Part shown: positions 1 through 64,000 of the stretch, piece after piece
How positions within the stretch are numbered: position 1 is the first letter of the stretch
Layout of the letters: the number at the start of each line of letters is the position of its first letter
NCBI GenBank assembly: GCA_033675265.1
Contig: JAUJYZ010000355.1
Location: forward strand, 62,001-126,000
Origin: Actinostola sp. cb2023
Taxonomy: Eukaryota > Cnidaria > Anthozoa > Actiniaria > Actinostolidae
DNA length: 64,000 nucleotides
Reading direction: 5' to 3'
The notes under the pieces: generated by a model
Databases searched by the model: none
The model's input: the letters and a program-made list of their open reading frames with translations, nothing else
Told to the model about the DNA's origin: nothing
Translations under genes and position numbers: made by a program

Positions 1-3000
1 CAAAACGCTTGATTTCAGCGTTATTTTGAACGTAAATGAGAGCAATGCGATAGCAAAACAAACGCTTGATTTCAGCGTTATTTTGAACGTAAATGAGAGC
101 AATCTGATAGCAAAATGCTTGATTTCAGCGTTATTTTGAACGGAAATGAGAGCAATCCGATAGCAAAACGCTTGATTTCAGCATTATTTTGAACGGAAAT
201 GAGAGCAATGCGATAGCAAAACGCTTGATTTCAGCGTTATTTTGAACGTAAATGAGAGCAATCTGATAGCAAAACGCTTGATTTCAGCGTTATTTTGAAC
301 GGAAATGAGAGCAATCCGATAGCAAAACGCTTGATTTCAGCGTTATTTTGAACGGAAATGAGAGCAATCCGATAGCAAAACGCTTGATTTCAGCGTTATT
401 TTGAACGGAAATGAGAGCAATGCGATAGCAAAACGCTTGATTTCAGCGTTATTTTGAACGTAAATGAGAGCAATCCGATAGCAAAACGCTTGATTTCAGA
501 GTTATTTTGAACGTAAATGAGAGCAATGCGATAGCAAAACGCTTGATTTCAGCGTTATTTTGAACGTAAATGAGAGCAATCTGATAGCAAAACGCTTGAT
601 TTCAGCGTTATTTTGAACGGAAATGAGAGCAATCCGATAGCAAAACGCTTGATTTCAGCGTTATTTTGAACGTAAATGAGAGCAATCCGATAGCAAAACG
701 CTTGATTTCAGCGTTATTTTGAACGGAAATGAGAGCAATCCGATAGCGAAACGCTTGATTTCAGCGTTATTTTTAACGTAAATGAGAGCAATCCGATAGC
801 AAAACGCTTGATTTCAGAGTTATTTTGAACGTAAATGAGAGCAATGTGATAGCAAAACGCTTGATTTCAGCATTATTTTGAACGGAAATGAGAGCAATGC
901 GATAGCAAAACGCTTGATTTCAGTGTTATTTTATTTTGAACGGAAATGAGAGCAATCCGATAGCAAAACGCTTGATTTCAGCGTTATTTTGAACGGAAAT
1001 GAGAGCAATCCGATAGCAAAACGCTTGATTTCAGCGTTATTTTTAACGTAAATGAGAGCAATCCGATAGCAAAACGCTTGATTTCAGAGTTATTTTGAAC
1101 GTAAATGAGAGCAATGCAATAGCAAAACGCTTGATTTCAGTGTTATTTTGAACGGAAATGAGAGCAATCCGATAGCAAAACGCTTGATTTCAGCGTTATT
1201 TTGAACGGAAATGAGAGCAATCCGATAGCGAAACGCTTGATTTCAGCGTTATTTTTAACGTAAATGAGAGCAATCCGATAGCAAAACGCTTGATTTCAGA
1301 GTTATTTTTATTTTGAACGTAAATGAGAGCAATGCAATAGCAAAACGCTTGATTTCAGCGTTATTTTGAACGTAAATGAGAGCAATCCGATAGCAAAACG
1401 CTTGATTTCAGCATTATTTTGAACGTAAATGAGAGCAATGCGATAGCAAAACGCTTGATTTCAGCGTTATTTTGAACGTAAATGAGAGCAATGCGATAGC
1501 AAAACGCTTGATTTCAGCGTTATTTTGAACGTAAATGAGAGCAATCCGATAGCAAAACGCTTGATTTCAGCATTATTTTGAACGTAAATGAGAGCAATCC
1601 GATAGCAAAACGCTTGATTTCAGCATTATTTTGAACGTAAATGAGAGCAATGCGATAGCAAAACGCTTGATTTCAGCGTTATTTTGAACGTAAATGAGAG
1701 CAATGCGATAGCAAAACGCTTGATTTCAGCGTTATTTTGAACGTAAAAATGAGAGCAATCTGATAGCGTAAAAAACGCTTGATTTCAGCGTTATTTTGAA
1801 CGGAAATGAGAGCAATCCGATAGCAAAACGCTTGATTTCAGCGTTATTTTGAACGTAAATGAGAGCAATCTGATAGCAAAACGCTTGATTTCAGCGTTAT
1901 TTTGAACGGAAATGAGAGCAATCCGATAGCAAAACGCTTGATTTCAGCGTTATTTTGAACGTAAATGAGAGCAATGCGATAGCAAAACAAACGCTTGATT
2001 TCAGCGTTATTTTGAACGTAAATGAGAGCAATCTGATAGCAAAATGCTTGATTTCAGCGTTATTTTGAACGGAAATGAGAGCAATCCGATAGCAAAACGC
2101 TTGATTTCAGCATTATTTTGAACGTAAATGAGAGCAATGCGATAGCAAAACGCTTGATTTCAGCGTTATTTTGAACGTAAATGAGAGCAATCTGATAGCA
2201 AAACGCTTGATTTCAGCGTTATTTTGAACGGAAATGAGAGCAATCCGATAGCAAAACGCTTGATTTCAGCGTTATTTTGAACGGAAATGAGAGCAATCCG
2301 ATAGCAAAACGCTTGATTTCAGCGTTATTTTGAACGGAAATGAGAGCAATGCGATAGCAAAACGCTTGATTTCAGCGTTATTTTGAACGTAAATGAGAGC
2401 AATCCGATAGCAAAACGCTTGATTTCAGAGTTATTTTGAACGTAAATGAGAGCAATGCGATAGCAAAACGCTTGATTTCAGCATTATTTTGAACGGAAAT
2501 GAGAGCAATCCGATAGCAAAACGCTTGATTTCAGCGTTATTTTGAACGTAAATGAGAGCAATGCGATAGCAAAACGCTTGATTTCAGCATTATTTTGAAC
2601 GTAAATGAGAGCAATGCGATAGCAAAACGCTTGATTTCAGCGTTATTTTGAACGTAAATGAGAGCAATCTGATAGCAAAACGCTTGATTTCAGCGTTATT
2701 TTGAACGGAAATGAGAGCAATCCGATAGCAAAACGCTTGATTTCAGCGTTATTTTGAACGTAAATGAGAGCAATCCGATAGCAAAACGCTTGATTTCAGC
2801 GTTATTTTGAACGGAAATGAGAGCAATCCGATAGCGAAACGCTTGATTTCAGCGTTATTTTTAACGTAAATGAGAGCAATCCGATAGCAAAACGCTTGAT
2901 TTCAGAGTTATTTTGAACGTAAATGAGAGCAATGTGATAGCAAAACGCTTGATTTCAGCATTATTTTGAACGGAAATGAGAGCAATGCGATAGCAAAACG

Positions 3001-5590
3001 CTTGATTTCAGTGTTATTTTGAACGGAAATGAGAGCAATCCGATAGCAAAACGCTTGATTTCAGCGTTATTTTGAACGGAAATGAGAGCAATCCGATAGC
3101 GAAACGCTTGATTTCAGCGTTATTTTTAACGTAAATGAGAGCAATCCGATAGCAAAACGCTTGATTTCAGAGTTATTTTGAACGTAAATGAGAGCAATGC
3201 AATAGCAAAACGCTTGATTTCAGTGTTATTTTGAACGGAAATGAGAGCAATCCGATAGCAAAACGCTTGACGCTTGATTTCAGCGTTATTTTGAACGGAA
3301 ATGAGAGCAATCCGATAGCGAAACGCTTGATTTCAGCGTTATTTTTAACGTAAATGAGAGCAATCCGATAGCAAAACGCTTGATTTCAGAGTTATTTTGA
3401 ACGTAAATGAGAGCAATGCAATAGCAAAACGCTTGATTTCAGCGTTATTTTGAACGTAAATGAGAGCAATCCGATAGCAAAACGCTTGATTTCAGCGTTA
3501 TTTTGAACGTAAATGAGAGCAATGCGATAGCAAAACGCTTGATTTCAGCGTTATTTTGAACGTAAATGAGAGCAATGCGATAGCAAAACGCTTGATTTCA
3601 GCGTTATTTTGAACGTAAATGAGAGCAATCCGATAGCAAAACGCTTGATTTCAGCATTATTTTGAACGTAAATGAGAGCAAGAGCAAAACGCTTGATTTC
3701 AGTTTTGAACGTAAAAATGAGAGCAATCCGATAGCAAAATGCTTGATTTCAGCATTATTTTGAACGTAAATGAGAGCAATGCGATAGCAAAACGCTTGAT
3801 TTCAGCGTTATTTTGAACGTAAATGAGAGCAATCTGATAGCAAAACGCTTGATTTCAGCGTTATTTTGAACGGAAATGAGAGCAATCCGATAGCAAAACG
3901 CTTGATTTCAGCGTTATTTTGAACGTAAATGAGAGCAATCTGATAGCAAAACGCTTGATTTCAGCGTTATTTTGAACGGAAATGAGAGCAATCCGATAGC
4001 AAAACGCTTGATTTCAGCGTTATTTTGAACGTAAATGAGAGCAATGCGATAGCAAAACAAACGCTTGATTTCAGCGTTATTTTGAACGTAAATGAGAGCA
4101 ATCTGATAGCAAAATGCTTGATTTCAGCGTTATTTTGAACGGAAATGAGAGCAATCCGATAGCAAAACGCTTGATTTCAGCATTATTTTGAACGTAAATG
4201 AGAGCAATGCGATAGCAAAACGCTTGATTTCAGCGTTATTTTGAACGTAAATGAGAGCAATCTGATAGCAAAACGCTTGATTTCAGCGTTATTTTGAACG
4301 GAAATGAGAGCAATCCGATAGCAAAACGCTTGATTTCAGCGTTATTTTGAACGGAAATGAGAGCAATCCGATAGCAAAACGCTTGATTTCAGCGTTATTT
4401 TGAACGGAAATGAGAGCAATCCGATAGCGAAACGCTTGATTTCAGCATTATTTTTAACGTAAATGAGAGCAATCCGATAGCAAAACGCTTGATTTCAGAG
4501 TTATTTTGAACGTAAATGAGAGCAATGTGATAGCAAAACGCTTGATTTCAGCATTATTTTGAACGGAAATGAGAGCAATGCGATAGCAAAACGCTTGATT
4601 TCAGTGTTATTTTGAACGGAAATGAGAGCAATCCGATAGCAAAACGCTTGATTTCAGCGTTATTTTGAACGGAAATGAGAGCAATCCGATAGCGAAACGC
4701 TTGATTTCAGGTTATTATTTTTAACGTAAATGAGAGCAATCCGATAGCAAAACGCTTGATTTCAGAGTTATTTTGAACGTAAATGAGAGCAATGCAATAG
4801 CAAAACGCTTGATTTCAGCGTTATTTTGAACGTAAATGAGAGCAATCCGATAGCAAAACGCTTGATTTCAGCGTTATTTTGAACGTAAATGAGAGCAATG
4901 CGATAGCAAAACGCTTGATTTCAGCGTTATTTTGAACGTAAATGAGAGCAATGCGATAGCAAAACGCTTGATTTCAGCGTTATTTTGAACGTAAATGAGA
5001 GCAATCCGATAGCAAAACGCTTGATTTCAGAGTTATTTTGAACGTAAATGAGAGCAATGCAATAGCAAAACGCTTGATTTCAGCATTATTTTGAACGTAA
5101 ATGAGAGCAATCCGATAGCAAAACGCTTGATTTCAGAGTTATTTTGAACGTAAATGAGAGCAATGCAATAGCAAAACGCTTGATTTCAGCGTTATTTTGA
5201 ACGTAAATGAGAGCAATCCGATAGCAAAACGCTTGATTTCAGCGTTAAATGAGAGCAATCCGATAGCAAAACGCTTGATTTTAGCGTTATTTTGAACGTA
5301 ACTGAGAGCAATGCGATAGCAAAACGCTTGATTTCAGCGTTATTTTGAACGTAAATGAGAGCAATCCGATAGCAAAACGCTTGATTTCAGAGTTATTTTG
5401 AACGTAAATGAGAGCAATGGAATAGCAAAACGCGTGATTTCAGCGTTATTTTGAACGTAAATGAGAGCAATCCGATAGCAAAACGCTTGATTTCAGCGTT
5501 ATTTTTAACGTAAATGAGAGCAATCCGATAGCAAAACGCTTGATTTCAGCGTTATTTTGAACGTAAATGAGAGCAATTCGATAGCAAAAC
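1..5590. repeat. 53-bp satellite array with higher-order structure
   Basis: About 105 head-to-tail copies of a 53-bp unit (CAAAACGCTTGATTTCAGCG, then TTATTTTGAACGTAAATGAG, then AGCAATCCGATAG) fill the start of the window, so the array probably continues upstream. Variant positions recur: GTAAATG or GGAAATG, CAGCG, CAGAG, CAGCA or CAGTG, CCGATAG, GCGATAG or CTGATAG. A rare variant, CAAAACAAACGC followed by AAAATGC, recurs at about 54, 1983 and 4053, giving a higher-order period of about 1.93 to 2.07 kb. Most units contain the inverted repeat AACGCT-7nt-AGCGTT. The array ends at about 5590 in unique AT-rich DNA. No coding potential was seen. Confidence 0.97.
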
Positions 5591-5993
5591 GCGAACGTTC
5601 GCTCAACCTATATAAAAACATGATGCACACAGTTTAGACTTCCTATAATTTTTTTTATTGATATGAATCTTTCATTTGAACCAATATTCAACAATAAATT
5701 TATTGTAAAGTCATACTATATACATGATTCATAAAACTAATATTGATGATCTGATCAATTATATCAAAATTGATTAAAACATGCAGATTGCGTCTAGCAA
5801 TTCTTATAGATAAATGGGGTCATTTTCACTTATTCTGAGTTGTCAAGAGTAAACTCAATAAACCTTAACTGTAACTATCATAAATATGCCATATCATAAA
5901 TTAATTTCGACATTTTTTTCAATAATATCTGGCAATACAATAATAATATAAATATAATGATAGAAGTACAGAAATATCAAAACTAAAACCTAA
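5591..5993. other. AT-rich sequence, no gene seen
   Basis: AT-rich unique-looking DNA between the satellite and the first gene. I see no ORF, clear repeat or RNA gene here. Confidence 0.6.
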
Positions 5994-35431: not shown

Positions 35432-38400
35432 TTAAGGACCCTTTCTGCTTTTCTTTAACCACTGGTACACTTGTTCCACTTCACTCAATTGTGGAAGAGT
35501 AAAAGGGCCAACACCCACAACAGCAACAGGGCCATAAAACACGCACGAACTGTGACATCTATCAATGTCATCACGTCTTGGCCAGGCGAACACTTTTGCT
35601 CCACTGCAAACTGTAGAGTGCAGGAATTTGAAATCGACGAAACCTGCACCATCATAACTTCCTAGGACTCGGCCAAAGTAGTACGTCTTCTGATATTCTA
35701 CAGCGTAGTATCTATCCTGTTGAACAAAAGGGCGAGTAAAACTGTGCAGCTCTTTCTCATGCAACTCCAAGATCATGTGACGCCTGAAGTTATGGCTATC
35801 GCTGTATGGAACTGGAGATTGCAGTAAGCATCTGGCATACAAGCATATAAACAAACCACAGTCGAAGCTGTTTAGCTGTTGTGGGATATCCTTCGGAGTG
35901 TTTGTGTAAAAGCGCCACTGCTTTTTGTCAAGGCTGCTGTCAACGTCCTCTAACAACTTCCACATCTTTTGGATGGCATTCTCTGCTGATGGCTTTGTAA
36001 ATGACCCTGCTAAGCTGTCCAAAACTAGAATTTCTTTTTCTTTTGGAAGAACAACAAGAAGGAACCAATGCTTGCTTTGGCCAGGGTTACATGGAACCAG
36101 AACAACGTCTTGCTCCATCAGAGGGGCTTTCCCCTTCAGCAGATCTTGAGTTGACATCCTGCCTGCAGGCCCCTTCTCGAATGCCTCCCACCCCAGACTT
36201 TCTGCTTGCACACCTTTGGAAGAACCTGTGCTTGTAATGATATCGAAGTAGGCCTCAATGACAAAGTTAGTCAGGTATTTATCTTCGTCGCGTGGTTTGC
36301 AACCATGAAGACCTTGAAGATCTTTTTCATCAAGCACACTGCTGCCTTTGGACCTAACTGAACCATCGAGCAAACAATTCAGGAGGGGTTCTTTCTGCTC
36401 TGGGAAAACACAAGTTGTTTGTGCGTTGAATCTGGTGGCTGTATTCTTGAGCAGTCCATAATGCACGTCTGTGGCTGGTAACACCCTGGGTGAATGCTGA
36501 GTGTTATCAGCCGTGGACTGATCACTGCCAATCTCTGTACTTCTTTCATCTGTTGGTTTCACATTAAGAAACGTACGAAGAGAGGCTCTGAAAAGCTTTC
36601 CCCGGTCTGCCGATTTGACACTTTTTTTTTTACACTAATTTTCTTCCTTTTGTGGGGCTGACTGGAATCTGCGGCATCGCTTTTGGTTCTTTTTCGTACT
36701 TTCTCTGTACTTAAATAAGGCTTAGGTGTAGGTTGCTGGCGTCTTTCTTGAGCAACCTTGAACAATCTTGGAAACTCTTTTGGAGTGTCTCTTGGCACTG
36801 GCTTCTCTTTTGGAGTGTCTCTTGGCACTGGCTTCTCTTTTGGAGTGTCTCTTGGCACTGGCTTCTCTTTTGGAGTGTCTCTTGGCACTGGCTTCTCTTT
36901 TGGAGTGTCTCTTGGCACTGGCTTCTCTTTTGGAGTGTCTCTTGGCACTGGCTTCTCTTTTGGAGTGTCTCTTGGCACTGGCTTCTCTTTTGGAGTGTCT
37001 CCTGGCACTGGCTTCTCTTTTGGAGTGTCTCTTGGCACTGGCACTGGCTTCTCTTTTGGAGTGACTTTGTCAGCCATGTTTGTCGTTTCAGGACGTGTGG
37101 TAGTTGGTTTGCTCTGCTGTTCCCTTTCTTGCTGAATCGAAGACTTCACTCGAAGATTCCAATTTAGGAAATGGAATGCTTTAATTGAGCTTTCATCTAG
37201 AGATCTTCGTTTCTCACCAAGAATTTCTTTGTAGGCAGAAAACGATCGTTCTACATCGTAAGAGCCGATGGTAGTTGTACAATAGCATGATGCCAAATTG
37301 TAGAGCTCAGGTAGATTGCTTGCCTTTGATTTCCAAAACAACTTCAGGTCCACCTTTCCATCCGTGCTGTTCTTAACAGCCGAAGGACCCAGGATGTTGA
37401 CATAAAGTTCCCACTCATTCCTTGAAACTTCTTCAAATCCAGGGATGCTATCTATGGAATCAAAGTTGAGATCCACATCAATAAGATTTCTCGGATCTAG
37501 GACTTGAATCTGATCTAGAAACTTTGAAGCTGGCTGTGCCCCATCCACAACATACTTGCTAAGTTTCTTATGAGCAGCGAGAAAAGCTGAACTGAAGAGA
37601 CACAACAATTCTTTCTTCTCGTGGCTGCTGAAATTGAAGTCCCCTTTGAAACAATATCCAAGATCTTCTTCCTCCAGGGAAGTGTTCACATGAAGGTAGT
37701 TTAATAAATTCTCCATTTGTTTTATGTGCCTGAGTGACGTTTGGCATTCTCTCCTGAAAATAATTCAGGAAAATCATGAAAGTGGGTGCCTTGACTTTCA
37801 GAAAGGCAAGTTGTGCGTGAAGGTTCTTCATAAAACGTTGGTCTTGGTACATTTCTTCTAATCGTAGGAGGGAATTACTAGCAGCATTTCGTCCCCGACT
37901 AAGTTCTTCTTGAACAAAATCTTCGAAGAGGAAACAGTAATCAGCATGGTAAAGAACAGAGTCAAACCAGGCACTCCAGCTTTTGGTTGTTGGGTTCGGT
38001 GGCATAACGACACTGTCTTCTGAATTAAGAGCCCCTTTTAGGAAATTCAGAAATCTGCTTTTCCTTCCACTGGGAACGAAGAAGAGATTACGGAAACACT
38101 TCACAAACTCAGTGACCTCTTTGAAGCTCTTTTTAAAATCAGAGGCTGCAAGATTTACTATGTGGCTGTGGCAGGTGATGTGAATGCAAAAAGGAAATAA
38201 GCAGGATAATGTGTCACAAAAATGCCTTTTTCATGTATGGCACGTTGTCGGAGTTAAAAACGCGGACATTGTCATAGTCTATGCCGTATTCATGCACAGT
38301 TTTCACAACCGCCCGAGACACTGTTCTGTTGTTGGTTTCATGTAAAAAAGCGGAGTCGAGTAAATATGCAACAGAGTTCCCATTGGGTGAAAGTTCGTCG

Positions 38401-53849: not shown

Positions 53850-54456
53850 ACATGAAGTAATGCATTATTTGAAACAATTTCATGGTTTGATATAAATGCA
53901 TTATTTGAAACAATTTCATGGTTTGATATAAATGCATTATTTGAAACAATTTCATGGTTTGAAACAATTTCGTGGTTTGAAACAATTTCATGGTTTGAAA
54001 CAATTTCATGGTTTGAAACAATTTCATGGTTTGATATAAATGCATTATTTGAAACAATTTCATGGTTTGAAACAATTTCGTGGTTTGAAACAATTTCATG
54101 GTTTGAAACAATGTCATGGTTTGATATAAATGCATTATTTGAAGCAATTTCATGGTTTGATATCAATGCATTATTTGAAACAATTTCATGGTTTGAAACA
54201 ATTTCATGGTTTGAAACAATTTCATGGTTTGATATCAATGCATTATTTGAAACAATTTCATAGTTTGATATAAATGCATTATTGGAAACAATTTCATGGT
54301 TTGAAACAATTTCGTGGTTTGATATCAATGCATTATTTGAAACAATTTCATGGTTTGATATAAATGCATTATTTGAAACAATGTCATGGTTTGATATAAA
54401 TGCATTATTTGAAACAATTTCATGGTTTGATATAAATGCATTATTTGAAACAATTT
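53850..54456. repeat. 18/36-bp satellite
   Basis: Alternating 18-bp units TTTGAAACAATTTCATGG and units ending TTTGATATAAATGCATTA. About 33 half-units; single changes such as CATGG to CGTGG and TATAAAT to TATCAAT mark sub-blocks. The array ends exactly at the left end of the integrase-RING element. Confidence 0.95.
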
Positions 54457-54922
54457 AATCAGTGAAAGAAAGTGGCAATTCATATGTTTACCAACAATAG
54501 GTTATTGATCTTCTAAATTCAGCTATTTTTCAATTTTCAAATTTTGTTTTGCTTTTTGAAATTCAAATGTGTATGCCTTTTTTCAATTTTTTTACTCAGT
54601 TCGATAACTTGAAATTTCCCAGGCTTTTTTCTTTAAAACCCGAAAAAATGGTACTATTTTCATGTTTTAGAAATAATTTTGAATGTTGAAAATTCATACC
54701 CTTTTTCCAAATTTTCTGTCCTGTGCGAGAATATGAAATTTCCCATCTTTTTTTGCGAGAAGGTGTTTAAAAGGGTGCTATTTTCGTATTTATTAAGCTG
54801 ATTTAAATGTTGCATTTTAACACTTATTTCCATTTTTTCATTTGATTGTGATGAATTGAAATTGAAATTGTTTTCATTGAGCTCGCGTGTCAGCCACGCA
54901 CTGCATGTGCCGCAAAATTTCC
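54457..54922. repeat. Left arm of the copy-1 inverted repeat
   Basis: Near-identical inverted copy of about 59046-59511, containing AGCCACGCACTGCATGTGCC near its inner end. Beyond 54922 the two arms diverge except for E2F-like motifs. Confidence 0.88.
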
Positions 54923-54938
54923 CGTCAAGAGATTCTCA

Positions 54939-54980
54939 TTTCCCGCCAAAACAGGCTATTAAATCATTTTCGCGCCAAAA
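54939..54980 (+). promoter_or_regulatory. Pair of E2F-like sites upstream of the integrase
   Basis: TTTCCCGCCAAAA (54939-54951) and TTTCGCGCCAAAA (54968-54980) both fit the E2F consensus TTTSSCGC, about 115-155 bp before the integrase ATG at 55094. Related sites lie at the same relative position in the other arm. Binding is inferred from sequence only. Confidence 0.5.
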
Positions 54981-55093
54981 TATAATGTCAAGCATTATGT
55001 TTTCATTTATCTTCGTATGCCCGTGGGAAAATGCGCGCCAGGAACGGAATACTTTTTGTCCGCCAAAGACTGATCTATTTAATGTGAAACATT

Positions 55094-57201
55094 ATGGATG
55101 TTTTGGAGGCAAATATTGAGCGTATACGAGAATATCGGCAAAACAACCTAACTTATCAACAAATCAGTCAGTGAGTTATTCCATGAGAATTTCCCTGAAG
55201 TACGAAGAGGGTTTTCTGTGAGAAGTATTCGTTTGGTATGCACGAAACATGGATTGAAGAAAACAACCGATGTAGAGGTAGACCAAATCGTACGAAGATG
55301 TGTGAATGAGGTATAACAAACATGAAATTCAAATTCTTCTGAATTGATAGTTTATTCGGGACTTATCGTTGTCAAATTCTCTTTTATTCAGGTTGGTCCA
55401 ACGTATGGACGTAAATTAATGACCGGCTACGTGCGCAGTAAGGGCTATAGCTTTAGCGGTAATCAAGTTGCTATGTCACTGCGACGTGTAAATCCCACAG
55501 ATCATGCAAGAAGAAGGGCAGATACAGTGCGAAGACAGAATCCGGTACCATACAGTCCACTTTACTATGGCCACAAACTACATTGCGATCAAAATGAGAA
55601 ACTTGCTATGTATGGGTGTACTTTATATGCTTTTAATGATGGCCACAGCTCAAAAATCGTCAGATTGTTTTGTATGCCGAAGAAAAATGCTTTGGTGATA
55701 TATTCTCACTTCAGGTGAGTTGTTGCCATAACGTTGATTATTGGCTCCCAAAATGTTAAATTGTTTCTTATGACACCAGATCGTCCGAATTTTCGCAAAA
55801 CTAGCCTGCCATGCACTATATCTGTGATACCAGTTGAACCTCCCATAAGCGACCACCCAAAATGTCAAGCTTTGTGGTCGCTTACGAGAGGCGGTCGCTT
55901 ACGAGAGGTTCCAACACTTAATTAGCCATTTCAAAAACGAGTGGAGGACTGGTTTAGTTAGATATTGAACGAGTAACAGCTTTCCAAACATCTCAAAAAT
56001 TACAAAGAAATGTATGTTTACCAGGGACAAGTGTCCCCCGTAACCATACATTTCTTTGTAATTTTTGCAGTTTTTGAATGTCTGCAGTTCATTTACTACT
56101 TGTCCAAACCTATCAAACTCCTGAAACTTACTAATTCTGATATGCTCTTTCTTGTGATGGAGTTCATTTTTTAATTAGAGTAATTCTAAAATCTAGTTCC
56201 CAGTCCTCCACTCGTTTTTGAAATGGCTAATTGGAAACTTTTGGTATTTTGAAAAACTGGCGGTCGCTAAGGAGAGGTGGTCGCGGCTTACGAGAGTGGT
56301 CGCAACATACATAAACTTTATTAATCACAACCGGAGGTTCAACTGTAGTATCTTTGTGTATTTTTAAATGTATTTCTTATGATTACTCAACAGAGATGTA
56401 TTGATCAAAGAAGGGATATGGGACACTGTGAGAGTCGATCATGGGACTGAGGCTTGTCTTATGCTGTTTGTTCAGAATATGTTAAGACATCTAAGGCAAA
56501 ATCAAGCGTGTGAACCATATGTCCAGACTCGTTCCCGACAGGTAACTTTGCGAGGTTGTAGATTTCATGTGAGCTGATTAAAGTTTCTGAACTCAAATAT
56601 TATTATTTTTGATCTCTTTAGAATCTACCAGCAGAACGAAAGTGGCCCGAGGTAAATCAGCGTGTGTTATACCCAATAAAAGAAACGTTGGTGAGAATGG
56701 AAAATAGTCTTCTGATAAACCGCCTTGATCCAGTTGAACAATTTTGCCATGAATGTTGTTGACGTTGGATTACAAAGGGTATTGGCTTCTTGGAATTCAC
56801 ATTCAATCAAAGGTTTGTTTCTACTATCACAACAATCGCTCAAAATAATGTCATTAAGACTGCCTATTTATTTCTACACAGGTAAAAACGACAGAATTCC
56901 GAACTTTGTTGCAAGTAATACCAACAGTCTTAATCCAGTTAATGGAGCCTCTGTGCCAACTTCCGACGAAGTATTATGTTTGTATACCGAAGCAGGTGGA
57001 CACATAACTACAGACTGCCATTTTGGCATAGATCCCCTAGCAGGGGATGACATACTTATTAGGAGACGTGACGAAGAATTTGCACAAAATAATCACTCTT
57101 TCACTGAAATATTCAATAATGTTGTAAATGGAAACGATTTATTTCTAGAACAAGCAGTTAGACATTTCATATTACTTACAAGGAGTTTATCTTCAACTTG
57201 A
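55094..57201 (+). pseudogene. Five-exon DDE integrase (rve-type core), copy 1, frameshifted
   Basis: Exons 55094-55310, 55392-55714, 56394-56541, 56622-56812 and 56882-57201 have GT-AG borders. Exon 1 is helix-turn-helix-like (LTYQQIS, then after a break FHENFPEVRRGFSVRSIRLV). The integrase core follows: YGHKLHCDQNEKLAMYGCTL (first Asp in HCD), WDTVRVDHGTEACL (second Asp in VDHGTE) and NLPAERKWPEVNQRVLYPIK (Glu in PAER, the third acid). The last exon ends in a helical segment FGIDPLAGDDILIRRRDEEF. A 4-bp AGTC tandem duplication near 55150 shifts exon 1, and exon 4 has a second frame break near 56750, where several codons present in copy 2 are missing. I recognise this as a repeated metazoan integrase-core family. 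Intron 2 holds nested palindromic repeats. Confidence 0.78.
55836..56346. repeat. Nested palindromic MITEs in an integrase intron
   Basis: Outer pair AGTTGAACCTCC...GGAGGTTCAACT with GTCGCTTACGAGAG phrases. Inside it is TTAGCCATTTCAAAAACGAG with GTGGAGGACTGG, inverted at about 56203-56233. Inside that is AAAATTACAAAGAAATGTAT, inverted at about 56040-56063. This looks like three palindromes, one within the other. Confidence 0.8.
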
Positions 57202-57514
57202 GCTGATCGAATATACATCTACTCAGTTTCGTATATAAAAATGTAACGATATGAATAGAAAATAAAATATTACTTTAACTAGAATGATATTAAAATGTCC
57301 TACCTAAGCACTTTTCAACGGCACACATTAAAACCTAAATCAACGCTCAAGTCTAAAGTCGGCCCTCAGTCTAATGTCAGATTCAATATAAAGAACGAGG
57401 ATAAACATTTAACGAGCATTTTCGTCCTGTAACGGACTGATGCGGCGTGACTGATTGAAATTTGCATATAAAACTCAACAGTTCACAACAGTCGTTCATT
57501 CTACTGATTCTATA

Positions 57515-58867
57515 TCAACCAAATACAGGTCGAAGTAGGTCTTCATCATCATCATCATCATCATTAGAATCTGGGCCAGAATTTACAGCAGGGCCAGTGT
57601 CTACATTAGTGGCTGCAGAAATAGGTGGCATCCTTTGACCCAGCAGATCCATAATTCCTCTAATTACCGGGACCACGTTGTACATGCTGGTTGTACGGCA
57701 CAGTGGACATTTCGATATGGATAACGATGAATTAATCCATTGCTCTGTGCATGGTACACACCCAATAAATGCATAACATGCCGAGCAGCTTGCAGCAGGG
57801 AATTGTGCTGTTGAGAGGCATATCGTACATCTCATAATCTCAGCGGCGGTATCTTTGGCAGAAGGGACAGTCGCACTACTAGTTGTGGATGTACTCGATG
57901 TCGTAGACTGTGCACGTGCATGTGAATCCAAGCTCTGGTTACCAGGTGGATCGATCATTCTTCGTATTTCTTCAATGATGTTTAAATCAGTTTTACTTCC
58001 TCTGCTCTGTATACTGCATGCTCTTTCTTCTCAAGTTGGTCACTTCGGATTTCTTCGCAACATAAACTTTACGCGCAGTTTTCCAAAATTGGGCTCCTGG
58101 AAACATAGAAATAAAGAACAGATTATATATTGGAAAACATAGAAATGATGGATAATAAAATGCACATACCTTTTGTCATCTCACAGGATACTATCGGCAA
58201 AAACTTTGAATCTAGTACGGTGACTTCATGGCCAATCTGATCTTGCAGTTTGTCACTCACCGTCTGGACAGTTGAAGAGTTCTCATCAAGCACGAGGTGA
58301 ATTTGAAATTTTTCAGTGATAGTTCCGTTTCCGTCAATTTCTACTAATATCACAGACTTTTTCCATCTGCTTGCTGATCTTGTAAATTTGGGCCTTTTCA
58401 GCGTCAACGACGGCTGTCCTGCTGGAGGTGGATTCAGTCTGCCACGCTGGATATTTGGCTGTTGGTAAGACAATGGTATCCCAAGCTGGCTCTGTGGATT
58501 TTGAGCGGGATTTTGAGCGGTTGGAGATAGGGCGTCAATAGCATCTCCACTGACAATGTATTTCTTTGTTGGATCGACTACGAAAACTCCATTGTCATTA
58601 GATATAATTATTTCGTTCTCCCCATCTGAAAGCATGTATACACTGTTGCGGTTAAGTCTAAATATCATTGATACAGTATTAACAGTTAACACTGATTCTC
58701 TATATATTTTAATATTTTTTTATTTTTTTTTTGAGCCGCTCAGTTTTAGCGGCTCAAAAAAATATATAAAATAAATAAATAAAAATAAATAAATAAAAAA
58801 TAAGAGTTAACACTGATTCTCTAAGCATAACTGAGCGGCTCCCATAAGAAACATTAACAAGCGCCAT
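57515..58867 (-). pseudogene. RING-type zinc-binding protein, copy 1, disrupted
   Basis: Exon 1 (58867-58170, donor GTATGTGC) and exon 2 (58096-57515, acceptor TTTCCAG) correspond to the intact copy 2. Exon 1 is interrupted at about 58684-58822 by an insertion flanked by the 17-bp direct repeat GTTAACACTGATTCTCT. The rest of exon 1 stays open (MIFRLNRNSVYMLSDGENEI...RGRLNPPPAG...LKRPKFTRSA...VSCEMTKG). Exon 2 begins AQFWKTARKVYV, shifts frame near 58005, and then continues with RCTICLSTAQFPAASCSACY, AFIGCVPCTEQWINSS and SKCPLCR: eight cysteines of a RING-like finger. The C-terminus is an acidic tail with a run of Asp and LLRPVFG. Probable E3 ubiquitin-ligase-like role by the finger; substrate unknown. 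Confidence 0.75.
58684..58822. repeat. Insertion in the RING gene with 17-bp direct repeats and a hairpin
   Basis: GTTAACACTGATTCTCT occurs at both ends. Between them is AT-rich DNA with the palindrome TTTTTTGAGCCGCT-7nt-AGCGGCTCAAAAAA. AACTGAGCGGCTC, the inner part of the palindrome, also occurs in the adjacent gene sequence at about 58829. Confidence 0.85.
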
Positions 58868-59005
58868 GCTTGCCACAAGTGAAATTTCTCGTGGGAAAGT
58901 CTGGTTATATTCAGGGGGGTTTTACGAGACTTCTAGCTGTCAATCAAACAGCAGATTTTAGCGGGAGATCTCGCCAATATTATTGGAGGATCCTTGCACA
59001 CTAAC

Positions 59006-59050
59006 ATTTTGGCGCAAAATCTAATTAGTAATAAAGTTTTGGCGGGAATT
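59006..59050 (-). promoter_or_regulatory. Pair of E2F-like sites upstream of the copy-1 RING gene
   Basis: ATTTTGGCGCAAAAT (59006-59020; TTTGGCGC fits TTTSSCGC) and TTTTGGCGGGAATT (59037-59050) lie about 140-180 bp upstream of the minus-strand ATG at 58867, in the part of the arm that has otherwise diverged from the left arm. An inverted CCAAT pair (CCAATATTATTGG) lies at about 58973. Confidence 0.5.
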
Positions 59051-59511
59051 TGCGGCACATGCAGTGCGTGGCTGACACGCGAGCTCAATGAAAACAATTT
59101 CAATTTCAATTCATCACAATCAAATGAAAAAATGGAAATAAGTGTTAAAATGCAACATTTAAATCAGCTTAATAAATACGAAAATAGCACCCTTTTTAAA
59201 AACACCTTCTCGCAAAAAAAGATGGGAAATTTCATATTCTCGCACAGGACAGAAAATTTGGAAAAAGGGTATGAATTTTCAACATTCAAAATTATTTCTA
59301 AATCATGAAAATAGTACCATTTTTTCGGGTTTTAAAGAAAAAAGCCTGGGAAATTTCAAGTTATCGAACTGAATAAAAAAATTGAAAAAAGGCATACAAA
59401 TTTGAATTTCAAAAAGCAAAACAAAATTTGAAAATTGAAAAATAGCTGAATTTAGAAGATCAATAACCTATTGTTGGTAAACATATGAATTGCCACTTTC
59501 TTTCACTGATT
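59046..59511. repeat. Right arm of the copy-1 inverted repeat
   Basis: Inverted copy of 54457-54922; ends CTTTCACTGATT at 59511. Confidence 0.88.
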
Positions 59512-59572
59512 CTGTACCTCTCAGATTGTATAGCCACGGAAATTATTCACGTCTATATCGTTTTCTATGCAG

Positions 59573-60543
59573 AACCTTCCTGCCGAAAGAAAGTGGCCAG
59601 AAGTGAACCAACGCATACTCTACCCAATCAAGGAGACTCTTGTGAGAATGGAAAACAGCTTGTCAATTAATATGCATGATCCAACTGTCAAATTTTGTGT
59701 GTCATTTATAACATTAAATTTAGTGCAGGTTGGATTAGAAAGATTTGTAAACTCATGGAATGCACATCCCCTAGAAGGTAATTGTCATGTTGAGATAAAG
59801 CCCGTTTAAATGCAAATTAATTTTGCTGTTAACGGTTCATGCAGGGGTATTTGAATACTCGGAAATCCAGGGGCTGATTCAGTGGGACAGAGGGGGAGGG
59901 GAGAAAACGAAGGAAACACAACTGAACAGCCACTGGATTTCCGAGGAATTTCCGAAGATGGGGTATTTGCGGTAGCATGGGCGGATCCAGGGATTGTTGA
60001 GGGGGGTACGTGTCCCAATGCAAAATTTACTTCAAACCTGTGGCAAAAATAGATTCTAGGATAAAACAATCAATCAGGTATGACAGGTCCCCATACCCTC
60101 CCATTGGATCCGCCACTGGGTAGTCAGCCATTGAAGAAACACATGTAATTTATGTTCTATTTTATTCATTTTGTGCTCAATTTTTATGAGATGCTGAAGT
60201 GTTTATTCACTTATTTTTGTCAATAGGCAGAAGCATGAGAGAGCCAAACCTAACTGCAGCAAACACAAATAGAGTCCAACAAATTCCCAATCCCTCTATT
60301 ATTCCCAGTGTTGATGAAGCAAGAGCTATGTATGAGAATGCTGGAGGAAACATCACAAGAGAATCATCATTTGGTATTGATCCTCTAAAAGACAATGATT
60401 TATTAATTGCCAGAAGAGAAGAGCTGTTTAGGCAAAATAACTACTCATTTGAGAACATGTTTGGGTCAATAGTGAATGGGAATTCAACATCAATGGAAAG
60501 AGCACTTCTATCTTTTATTGACATTACTAGAAATATGCACTAA
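59573..60543 (+). pseudogene. 3' half of a second integrase gene, copy 2
   Basis: Two exons are intact: 59573-59777 (acceptor CTATGCAG, donor GTAATT) and 60227-60543 (acceptor CAATAG), joined in phase at the same position as exons 4 and 5 of copy 1. They encode NLPAERKWPEVNQRILYPIK (third catalytic Glu in PAER), then VGLERFVNSWNAHPLEG, and FGIDPLKDNDLLIARREELF, ending in LSFIDITRNMH. The helix-turn-helix and the first two catalytic Asp residues are absent, because intron 3 ends abruptly at the terminus of copy 1 (59511). Outside the conserved blocks the two integrases differ at many residues, so they are separate families, not a recent duplication. Confidence 0.8.
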
Positions 60544-60924
60544 TCAAGTTACAAAATGGAACATATATACCTTTTATTACTGAGAAAAAAAAAACTTTAA
60601 TCACAAACCTGCATGTACACCTTACGGGTTTGTTTGCGTAGTTTATGAAGATACTTTGATGCTTGTAAACGAATAAAGTTGTCCTAGCTTAACTTTAACT
60701 CAACCAGGGGCGTAGTGAGGATTTGGGGTTTGGGGGGGGGGGGAAGACAGGGGGGGGGGGGGTGGGGGGCATCCAGTATATAAAAAAAAGGAAAGAAAAG
60801 AAAGAAACAAAAAGAAACAAACATATTTACCAAAAAGTTAGGGGGTACGTGTCCCCTCGTACCCCACCCTCCTGACGCTAGTGAACTCAACAAGATATGA
60901 CATTGTACATGTACAGTTTTGTCA
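60544..60924. other. Spacer between convergent genes of copy 2
   Basis: Contains a G-rich low-complexity tract (about 60727-60770) flanked by CAGGGGCGTAGTGAGGA and GTGTCCCCTCGTACCC, phrases typical of a dispersed repeat. No gene seen. Confidence 0.6.
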
Positions 60925-62960
60925 TTATGCAAATACTGGTCGTAGAAGCTCATCATCAGAGTCATTCTCGTCGTCATTAGCAGCAGTGTTTTCATCTGAT
61001 GGTTCAGGGCCATTAATGACATTACTCTGTTGTGCAGCAATGGGCACGGTCTGTCCAAGAAGAGATGTGATACCTCGGATAACTGGAACAACGTCGTACA
61101 CTCTCGCTGTGCGACACAATGGACACTTTGAACGTGATAATGTTGAGCTTATCCATTGCTCAGTACATGGTATGCATCCAATGAACCCATAGCATACAGA
61201 GCAGCTTGCCGCTGGGAAGTGGGCAGTTGACAGACATATGGTACACCTCATGATTTCAGCTATTGTCTCTTTAGCTAAAGGAATAGTGTTGCTTGCGGAC
61301 ACTGTGGATGACTCATCTGACTCCAAGCTCTGGTTAATAGATGGTTCACCAATCATTCTTCGTAACTCTTCAATAACATCACTTCCTCTACCTTGTCGTT
61401 TTAATTTGTTAACTTCAGCTTTCTTACAAACGTACACCTTGCGTGCAGTTTTCCAAAATTGGGCCCCTTGAAAATACAGAAATAAATAACAAATGAGAAC
61501 ATAGATTCTCGCGATAAAATAACAATCAATTAACTTAACAGTAAAACTCAATTGTCTCAAAATCCCCGCTATTTCGAAACACCTATTTCCCGAACGATTT
61601 CTCAAAATAGCTGGGCTCGATGTTTATTTCAACCAATCACAGCACATCATTCCCACGGTAGGGAATATCTTTGACAGATTACTCACAAATTACAGTTACT
61701 GAAATTATGTATAGTTGTGTAAAAGCAAATGAAAAACTCACAATAATATTTTCCTTTTGTATTTCTTAGTCGGTGTATCTTAGAACTAATAAAGACGAAC
61801 CCAGTATTAATACCGCCGATTCCGATGAAACGCGACCACCTAGACTTTGATTTGATGGTTTGTACTTTGCATTAGGTGGACGTCAATCACATGTGAATCA
61901 TCGAAGTATGAATAGTTTTCGCTCAATAATTCAATTGTATCGTTTATTAGCCATTTCCTACAACACTAAACCAATATGAAAGTTATTCTAGCACGTTAGA
62001 GCTTAATCTACATTCCGTAATTCCGCCTAAAGCAATGTACAAACTCAATCCTCAAAGTCTAAGTGGTCGCGTTTCATCAGAATCGGCGGTAATCGTATGC
62101 AAATATATGGGCCATATAAACTTGCCCGCGACTGAATTTTTACAAATCTTGAAAATGCTCGAGGCCTCGGGAATACTCTGATACATTGAGGTATCAGTTC
62201 TAAAAATGTCGTCTATAGTCCGACAAACTTTCTCTACTTTACATAGTACTATGTGTATACAAACAAGTCAAATATAAAGAAGAACTGGCTCCTCCTCCTC
62301 CTCACACATAAAATAATATAATATTTTCTCGTTGGAAAAGTTGGTTAAATCAGATATGATATGACTGTTATTGCACGTACCTTTGGTCATTTCACACGAG
62401 ACTACAGGTAGCAACTTGGAATCCAACATTCCTATTTCGAACCCTAGCTGTTGCTTGAGCTGCTCGCTGATTAACTCGACTGTGGAAGATTCTTCGTTCA
62501 ACATAATGTGGATTTGGTAGTTTTCAGTTATGTTCCCATAAGCGTCAATGCTTACAACAATGAAACCTTTTTTCCATGCACTGTTTGTCTTGGCCTGCAT
62601 TGTAAATTTCGGTCTCTTCAACTGCAACTGTCCTGGAGGAGGATTTAATCTTCCGCGATCGTTGCTTTGGTAGGACATTGCGATCCCAAGACTTTGGCTT
62701 TGCGGACTTTGTTGACTGTGGACTGCTGGAGTGTACTGAGTGTCAATCGGATCTCCATTCACGATGTACCGTTTTCTACAGTCTACAGCAAATAATCCCG
62801 TTTCGTTCGGGAATGCGACCTCATTATTTTCTTCAGACTGCAAGTATAATCTTTGCTGGTTAAGGCGAAATAAAATACCGAGATTGGTTATATTAATGGC
62901 CGATTCCCTCAACATGACAGTGCGCGAGTGATCAACATCCGATACACGTACCAACGCCAT
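60925..62960 (-). CDS. RING-type zinc-binding protein of the integrase element, copy 2 (373 aa, intact)
   Basis: Exons 62960-62381 (donor GTACGTGC) and 61466-60925 (acceptor TTTCAAG) join in phase, 580+542 nt. The N-terminal region (about 1-190) has two conserved blocks shared with copy 1: LFRLNQQRLYLQ...NETGLFAVDCRKRYIVNGDP and, after a Gln/Pro/Ser linker and RGRLNPPPG, WKKGFIVVSIDAYGNITENY...VVSCEMTKG. Exon 2 begins AQFWKTARKVYVCKKAEVNK, a basic segment. The finger has Cys 268, 271, 282, 285, 291, 294, 308 and 311, ending CPLCR, an all-cysteine RING-like pattern. The tail is acidic and ends ELLRPVFA. No stop or frame break. It is convergent with the integrase. Likely a ubiquitin-ligase-type factor helping or protecting the element; this role is inference. 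Confidence 0.78.
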
Positions 62961-63036
62961 GACCCAGTTGTGTGGGGGCCTCGTGGCGGTTCACCTTGAA
63001 AATACCTGGAATTACGTCATCAACTATGGACACAAA

Positions 63037-63047
63037 TTTTGGCGGGA
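63037..63047 (-). promoter_or_regulatory. E2F-like site upstream of copy-2 RING gene
   Basis: TTTTGGCGGGA, 77 bp upstream of the ATG at 62960, followed by GATCTC as in copy 1 (GCGGGAGATCTC at about 58957). Sequence match only. Confidence 0.4.
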
Positions 63048-64000
63048 GATCTCAAGAAGATAACGGCTCAAAACACTCTGTGTTTCACTCACTCATCGTT
63101 GAGACAGTGAATTTCATTTCCTGTTCTTATTCAAAAGGTGGTAGATACAAGTTTAAAAAAAAGAACAATATCGATTTGCAAAGTAAAAATAATTACGATT
63201 AAATTATGTGTCATCAAGTGCTACAACTATTTACTAGTATATTAAATGCGTTTGATTTCTTCTTTCTTCACTCGCGATCAGGATTTTCCTGGCTATTTTA
63301 AGTTAAAAAAAGTTAAACTGCTAAAAAAATATATTCATATAATGGCAAATAGACCATTTCACACATTTACTGTAATTTATTATGCGCAGTTCAATGTCAA
63401 CCTTTTCCCTCGTAAAATAAAATTGTCAAATCAAATCAAACCTTGACTTGGAACGAGTCTCTTTGTCCAAGTGTCCGTATTAACCAAGCTGTCAGAAACA
63501 AAGCATATTTTATTGATATCAAGTGAAGACTAGTGTCCGATAATATAAGGTTGATTAATGGAGCGGTCATTATTTATGCGGGTGGGGTAGGGGGTGGGTG
63601 ATTTCTTGCTTCAAATTCTTAAATTTTCATAACCCTCCCGTGGCTAAAAATGTTTTAAATAACCCCTCCTTCTGGGGTTTGACAAAAAACGTAACCCCTC
63701 CTCCTTGATAACTAGACTACACCAAATATGATGAATGCTGAATATAACTTCACTTCAATCTGGTCGGCTGGCAACAACCTGGCGTAGCAGATTTTTATAA
63801 ACATATAACCTTTTGTTAAAACGGAAGCAATTTCTCATCAAGGAAATGCCTTTTCGTGATGAATAATATCAATAAAATCGATTTATCTTTGAAAAATGCT
63901 GTAGATACCTAGTAATGACTGATCTACTCCCAATGTAACAACATGTTAAAAGTATTTCTCTTACTGCTTTATTTTTTCTATTGACCCCTCTTTCAATTGC
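63048..64000. other. Non-coding DNA at the window end
   Basis: AT-rich, no supported gene. A MITE-like phrase (GAGTCTCTTTGTCCAAGTGTCCGTATTAACC) near 63455 is split here for length: GAGTCTCTTTGTCCAAG and TGTCCGTATTAACC. CCCCTCC-rich phrases near 63580-63710 resemble another foldback family. The right terminus of copy 2 was not located. Confidence 0.4.

Follow-up and report, generated by a model that had tools for sequence, protein, structure and literature searches.

Among the closest described counterparts of the element analysed here is IS3EU, which has an integrase-like DDE transposase (related to IS3/IS481), terminal inverted repeats (TIRs) and 6-bp target site duplications (TSDs), and whose complete families end in TA..TA according to PMC10045372. 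The same account gives GingerRoot an integrase-like transposase, 6-bp TSDs and termini that are mostly TA..TA and occasionally TG..CA, and supposes that it occurs in animals too (PMC10045372). Ginger1 and Ginger2 have 4-5-bp TSDs. In Chapaev and RAG1 a RING finger is fused to a DDE recombinase of another superfamily, the RING of RAG1 having been reported as a ubiquitin ligase, and, according to the same paper, as of 2015 no known transposable elements beyond the Chapaev type encoded a RING finger and Chapa domain (PMC4411706). In the fungal TET-bearing members of IS3EU, an alpha-kinase gene lies opposite in orientation to the transposase, and the TET/JBP genes of fungal transposons may act on DNA methylation (PMC12730594). 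Here we describe an element of the sea anemone Actinostola sp. cb2023 in which an integrase gene is paired with a RING gene, starting from two copies in a 64,000-nucleotide stretch of contig JAUJYZ010000355.1 (C1570:62001-126000, referred to as the window) from an assembly of 424 Mb in 1594 contigs.

The element shares the integrase-like transposase, the TIRs and the 6-bp TSDs with IS3EU, and the transposase and TSD length with GingerRoot; the TSD length separates it from Ginger1 and Ginger2. Its ends are AATC..GATT, unlike those of IS3EU and GingerRoot, and its partner gene codes for a RING protein, not for a kinase or a dioxygenase as in the fungal elements; no RING partner is described for GingerRoot in the available part of PMC10045372. 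It combines a DDE recombinase with a RING finger as Chapaev and RAG1 do, but in a separate gene on the opposite strand. As the fungal alpha-kinase gene shows (PMC12730594), other elements too have an additional gene opposite to the transposase. Judged by its integrase, TSDs and ends, the element is related to IS3EU and is not classed as a member, because the TA..TA ends are absent. IS3EU-like ends (TATGG..CCATA) are found in another element of the same genome (C123), which has a single gene, one open reading frame for a 518-residue rva_4 protein, and the TSD GGGTTC. No published pair of an integrase and a stand-alone RING protein was found in the open full-text literature, that is, outside Repbase and subscription papers. 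A HECT-type partner in fish elements, considered as a lead, was unsupported in a literature listing and was dropped.

We consider it fairly probable, from the sequence comparisons given below, that these loci are copies of a two-gene, IS3EU-related DDE transposon whose RING protein is a putative E3 ubiquitin ligase, with a host protein as its likely target rather than the element's own particular integrase.

Linkage of the two genes and mobility of the element

The genome was searched with the RING exon of the second copy in the window (copy 2), which gave 42 matches at 39 loci, and with the integrase, for which 123 of 503 candidates were scored and 80 loci obtained. About ten distinct lineages were read in sequence: the families f1 to f9, with the locus C614 grouped with f9, and C261. 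An integrase match was present within 10 kb at 37 of the 39 RING loci, where random placement would give 0.15; haplotigs and recent copies make up many of the loci, so that these counts are not independent. The two genes were convergent at 30 loci, divergent at 5 and on the same strand at 2, and 2 loci had no partner; in f8 (C680) they lie head to head. The sequence-only reading, made from the two copies in the window, had proposed a search of the whole genome as a check on the pair, and seen from the RING gene the pair recurs there more often than by chance.

Linkage was also examined from the side of the integrase, at loci with a nearly complete exon B. Fifty of 127 rows were kept (alignment over 91 or more of the 106 residues, with an identity of 44% or higher; 77 dropped) and scored with two RING queries, C808 being added by eye, within a window of 10 kb. 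A RING match was found at 39 of the 50 loci, one of which (C849:293002) only borrows the RING gene of its neighbour; at C849:325961, too, the match reported by the script belonged to a neighbour. Among the 11 loci without a match, C614 and C261 were shown by eye to own a partner.

The pair is also present in the coral Desmophyllum pertusum, where RING protein OS493_006730 and integrase OS493_006731 carry consecutive locus tags on contigs that are equally long. When 5.8 billion proteins were searched by profile, using the seven RING proteins of our partner alignment, 5 matches emerged among 4866 candidates; 2 of them are from D. pertusum, and OS493_006730 is one of these two. In viral contigs scanned with the same alignment there were 6 pattern matches, none of which was confirmed by tblastn.

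Of the 11 elements for which both ends could be seen, 9 have exact 6-bp TSDs. These are TTACAC (C849) and CTCAAA (C1310) in f1, CAATTT in a short f1 derivative, AAGGAG in an f2 derivative, TACTTC in a miniature element with identical flanks at C1314 and C77 (counted once), CTCCTG in f3, AAAATA and CCCTAA in f5, and GTGTAA in an f2 copy (C849:284225-331329, L009-L011) whose flanks lie 47 kb apart and in which f1 and f5 elements with TSDs of their own are nested. The right TIR of this 47-kb element seems to be split. The termini are AATC..GATT (AATC[A/C]GTG), reading AATCAGTG..CACTGATT in f1 to f4 and AATCCGTG in f5, and the TIRs of f1 are about 460 bp long. Such ends, with 6-bp TSDs, flank both genes in two f1 copies, one f3 copy and two f5 copies, so that the enclosure of both genes by common inverted repeats, first seen in one copy, extends to three families.

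Eight of 9 lineages show the catalytic motifs of the integrase (HxDQNEK; DHG, DKG or DMG; and the Glu in ER.W or EGVW); for f4 the sequence covered was that of exons C and D. The Pfam family rva_4 was matched by exon D of copy 2, by C808, by C123 and by the coral protein. No family match was obtained when the integrase exons of copy 1, the first copy in the window, and two pieces of exon B were scanned singly against Pfam. Relatives of the integrase occur in fish, hemichordates and sponges, among the best 120 of 136 matches. In a tree of 32 integrases, with C123 as the outgroup, the sponge, octocoral, hemichordate and fish sequences fall among the RING-bearing anemone lineages, with weak support for the deep branches. 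A predicted protein of the hemichordate Ptychodera flava (P0009) combines a BTB domain with an rva_4 integrase, which is either a fusion in the gene model or another ubiquitin-linked partner.

The RING protein and the mosaic lineages

The partner protein consists of two N-terminal blocks, a motif (F/Y)W...(A/S/T)RK just past the intron, a variable linker and the finger; in f1 to f4 and in C261 it closes with an acidic tail ending near LLRPVF. The intron is at the matching place in the translations of f1 to f9, and its splice sites were examined in the two window copies. The eight zinc ligands stand in RING order: C268, C271, C285, C291, C294, C308 and C311 are invariant in all seven aligned proteins, and the third ligand (C282) is shifted two residues later in f7 and f8. 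I270, W298, P309 and R312 are likewise invariant in the seven; f6 has Val and Lys. In RING E3 ligases, contact with the ubiquitin-conjugating enzyme (E2) depends on the corresponding Ile, Trp and Pro and on a basic linchpin that follows the last Cys.

In profile comparisons the finger region, and this region only, matched the TRIM37-type C8 RING (3lrq, E 8e-7) and BRCA1 (E 2e-5). All seven aligned partners reached zf-RING_2 weakly (best 5.7e-5), and their N-terminal blocks gave no confident match to a Pfam family; to the eye these blocks have some resemblance to beta-grasp (ubiquitin-like) folds, an impression that carries no weight in the readings below. By these motifs the partner is probably an E3 ubiquitin ligase.

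The RING gene is under purifying selection. Between f3 and f4 we obtained dN 0.232 and dS of about 3.1, which is near saturation, and thus dN/dS 0.075; between f1 and f2 the proportion of nonsynonymous differences (pN) was 0.25 against 0.76 for synonymous ones (pS), the latter beyond correction. These ratios bear out the proposal of the sequence-only reading that the gene had been kept by selection. Intron and cysteines are kept at 20-67% protein identity, and many of the genome matches are open frames with no stops.

The two genes of f1 have unlike relatives, which the sequence-only reading had not anticipated. Between f1 and f3 the integrases are 96-98% identical (dS 0.08-0.20) and the RING proteins 44%, with differences at 195 of 239 synonymous sites. 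Between f1 (the C849 copy) and f2 the pattern is reversed: the RING proteins are 61% identical and the integrases 72-76%. In approximately unbiased (AU) tests, whose groups were chosen with the identities already known, the integrase tree rejected f1+f2 (p 6e-6) and the RING tree rejected f1+f3 (9e-6) and f1+f3+f4 (7e-5). The TIR is divided in the same way: over positions 1-26, f1 has 92% identity to f3 and 73% to f2, whereas over positions 27-360 it has 64-73% identity to f2 and 33-40% to f3. Since the integrase and RING trees are incongruent, the integrase and terminal 26 bp of f1 have a history unlike that of its RING gene and inner TIR.

Family f1 has the look of a backbone of f2 type, comprising the inner TIR and the RING gene, which acquired an integrase of f3/f4 type together with the matching ends. 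In this small sample of six pairs from four families, where the direction of exchange is read solely from the position of f1, the integrase seems to be exchanged between lineages while the RING gene stays in the pair.

The two copies in the window

Both copies carry a RING gene, and the RING intron and the intron between integrase exons D and E agree between them, so that the common architecture described in the sequence-only reading holds for these parts; copy 2 has integrase exons D and E only, its left 1.48 kb with exons A to C being missing. Likewise, the acids of HCD, VDHGTE and PAER are all present in copy 1, and the HCD and VDHGTE parts are lacking in copy 2. The copies are not simply side by side, contrary to the sequence-only reading. 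The right end of copy 1 sits within the integrase intron of copy 2, and its left end within a tandem array of 36-bp units. The features are listed in Table 1.

Table 1. Features of the two copies and of the adjoining array, in window positions.
Feature	Positions	Strand	Remarks
36-bp tandem array (AATTTCATGGTTTGA...), left flank of copy 1	53859-54456	.	same array is the right flank of copy 2
Left TIR, copy 1 (f1), terminus AATCAGTG	54457-54916	+	99% complementary to 59049-59511; ends common to other f1 copies
Integrase exon A, copy 1, frameshifted	55094-55310	+	single frame over 73 residues in f1 copies L010, L012, L013
Copy 1 integrase exon B, with the first catalytic Asp (motif HCDQNEK)	55392-55714	+	
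Copy 1 integrase exon C, with the second catalytic Asp (motif VDHGTE)	56394-56541	+	
Copy 1 integrase exon D, with the catalytic Glu (motif PAERKW) and a frameshift	56622-56812	+	
Integrase exon E, copy 1	56882-57201	+	
Copy 1 RING gene exon 2, with a frameshift near 58000	57515-58096	-	start of the exon set by eye
RING gene exon 1, copy 1, hairpin insert inside	58170-58867	-	exon ends placed by eye
Right TIR, copy 1	59049-59511	-	
Copy 2 (f2), left end truncated, runs past window to C1570:126880	59512-64000	.	97% identical to C849 copy L009
Integrase exon D, copy 2	59573-59777	+	Pfam rva_4 PF24764, E 1.1e-9
Integrase exon E, copy 2	60227-60543	+	
Copy 2 RING gene exon 2, encoding the RING-type finger with eight cysteines and an acidic C-terminus that ends in DDELLRPVFA	60925-61466	-	
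Copy 2 RING gene exon 1, encoding the two conserved blocks of the N-terminus	62381-62960	-	

Copy 1 (54457-59511) has the plus-strand integrase and the minus-strand RING gene tail to tail, and both genes lie between arms of about 460 bp, as the sequence-only reading had recognised. Both are broken, by frameshifts in two integrase exons and one in the RING gene, and a hairpin insert of about 120 bp interrupts RING exon 1 at about 58700-58820 (more closely, 58685-58823); a direct repeat of about 18 bp flanks it. Because its ends lie in the array and in the intron of copy 2 and it has no TSD, copy 1 is probably a hybrid: in the simplest history, an f1 element inserted into the array and another into copy 2, and a deletion fused the two. 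A tandem duplication giving rise to copies 1 and 2 was rejected: their families differ, and copy 1 ends inside copy 2.

The RING gene of copy 2 is intact, as had been proposed, with an open frame across 373 residues. The right TIR of this copy lies beyond the window, at C1570:126526-126880 (window 64526-64880). The sequence-only observation is thus confirmed in part, with corrections for the broken genes of copy 1, the missing exons of copy 2 and the arrangement of the two. An inverted pair of 40 bp, spaced by 201 bp and 95% complementary, lies within the RING intron of copy 2 (61811-62091). The 36-bp array (window 53859-54456; C1570:126881-129538) hosts several elements, including a 2.5-kb derivative with the TSD CAATTT, and a target preference for this array is possible.

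Elsewhere in the window, an open reading frame for a Ulp1/C48 protease (35435-36634, minus strand, E 2.5e-18) overlaps one with a hAT dimerisation domain (36562-37764, minus strand, E 1.1e-8), which makes another transposon-like unit beside an enzyme of ubiquitin-like modifiers. A satellite of 53 bp occupies positions 1-5592 with about 105 copies. An Rfam scan of the window gave no match at gathering scores.

Possible roles of the RING partner

In the mechanism that we propose, the integrase would bind the terminal 26 bp or so, cut there and insert the element with a 6-bp stagger. The RING protein would act as an E3 ubiquitin ligase and select its substrate through the N-terminal blocks. This substrate would most likely be a host protein by which transposition is limited, through chromatin silencing or through repair at the integration site, and the action of the RING protein on it would raise the spread or survival of the element.

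Several observations weigh against this proposal or against parts of it. Two RING loci (C1575 and C506) have no integrase match among the 123 of 503 candidates scored. From the other side, 43 of the 80 integrase loci, many of them distant at 25-29% identity, lack a RING match in the surrounding 10 kb. Five of the 43 were inspected, and three (C808, C614 and C261) carry a convergent partner too diverged for the RING query, the finger of C261 containing a stop. The distant element C123, also inspected, has no RING partner; because its TSD is clean all the same, the partner is dispensable for the transposition chemistry in that branch. An f1 copy on C1448, with one TIR and the integrase, has no partner within the 9.9 kb examined. 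Two of the 11 elements with both ends in view lack a TSD: C746 and copy 1, the latter being flanked by unlike hexamers (CAATTT and CTGTAC). The Trp of the finger is Leu in f9 (C808, C614) and is not evident in C261, and the single-protein Pfam scores of the RING stay under the curated cut-offs. Among recent copies, seven comparisons pooled gave pN/pS 0.47 (22 synonymous and 36 nonsynonymous changes), f4 standing at 1.17 on 5 changes and another comparison showing no change; such a ratio is as expected from copies that decay after insertion.

A degenerate passenger, in which the RING gene would be a host gene fragment captured by the element and without function, is very improbable. Gene capture by transposons does occur, and both genes of copy 1 are broken; but intron place and finger layout are kept at 20-67% protein identity and many frames are open, and we rejected this reading on the dN/dS of f3-f4 (with the pN and pS of f1-f2 beside it) and on the conservation of the intron. 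A binding scaffold, with a RING-like zinc fold that no longer binds E2, appears unlikely, though less so. It would account for the weak single-sequence Pfam scores, for the one residue more than in TRIM37 between the fourth and fifth ligand, and for the lack of the usual Trp in f9 and C261. Against it stand the Ile, Trp, Pro and basic linchpin, invariant in the seven aligned proteins, the residues that serve E2 contact in RING ligases.

A lesser but appreciable possibility is that the RING protein regulates or assists the integrase itself, through its turnover, through complex assembly or as an accessory TIR-binding subunit, instead of serving against the host. The tight linkage and the purifying selection would fit such a role, and RAG1 has its RING in the same protein as the DDE core (PMC4411706). 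RING gene and inner TIR (27-360) also stay together in f1 and f2 (64-73%) despite unlike integrases, as would be expected if the partner reads the inner TIR; they may, however, be joined merely since one exchange tract covered the integrase, and the Pfam scan of the seven aligned partners showed no DNA-binding family above weak zinc-finger scores. The pairing in f1 of a RING gene with the integrase of another lineage (f1-f3: integrase 96-98%, RING 44%) also opposes this role. With the integrase seemingly exchanged between lineages, the RING partner does not belong to a single integrase. Of the roles named in the sequence-only reading, this disfavours one adapted to the element's own integrase, and it somewhat favours action on host factors. 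An exchangeable integrase is still compatible with a RING protein acting on a part conserved in every integrase.

A host-directed RING partner leads to a wider and more tentative reading of the same sequences: a deep clade of animal transposons might carry its own ubiquitin ligase against a host silencing or repair factor, with the RING gene and inner TIR as backbone and the integrase and its site of about 26 bp as an exchangeable cassette. If this is true, the partner would be expected also in the elements of sponges, hemichordates and fish, given where these fall in the integrase tree. The mosaic lineages amount to a natural swap experiment, which points to the terminal 26 bp as the site of the integrase and uncouples the role of the RING protein from any single integrase. 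A conserved stand-alone gene resembling ubiquitin ligases would give a eukaryotic DNA transposon a further route by which it may manipulate its host, in parallel to RAG1, where DDE recombinase and RING share one protein.

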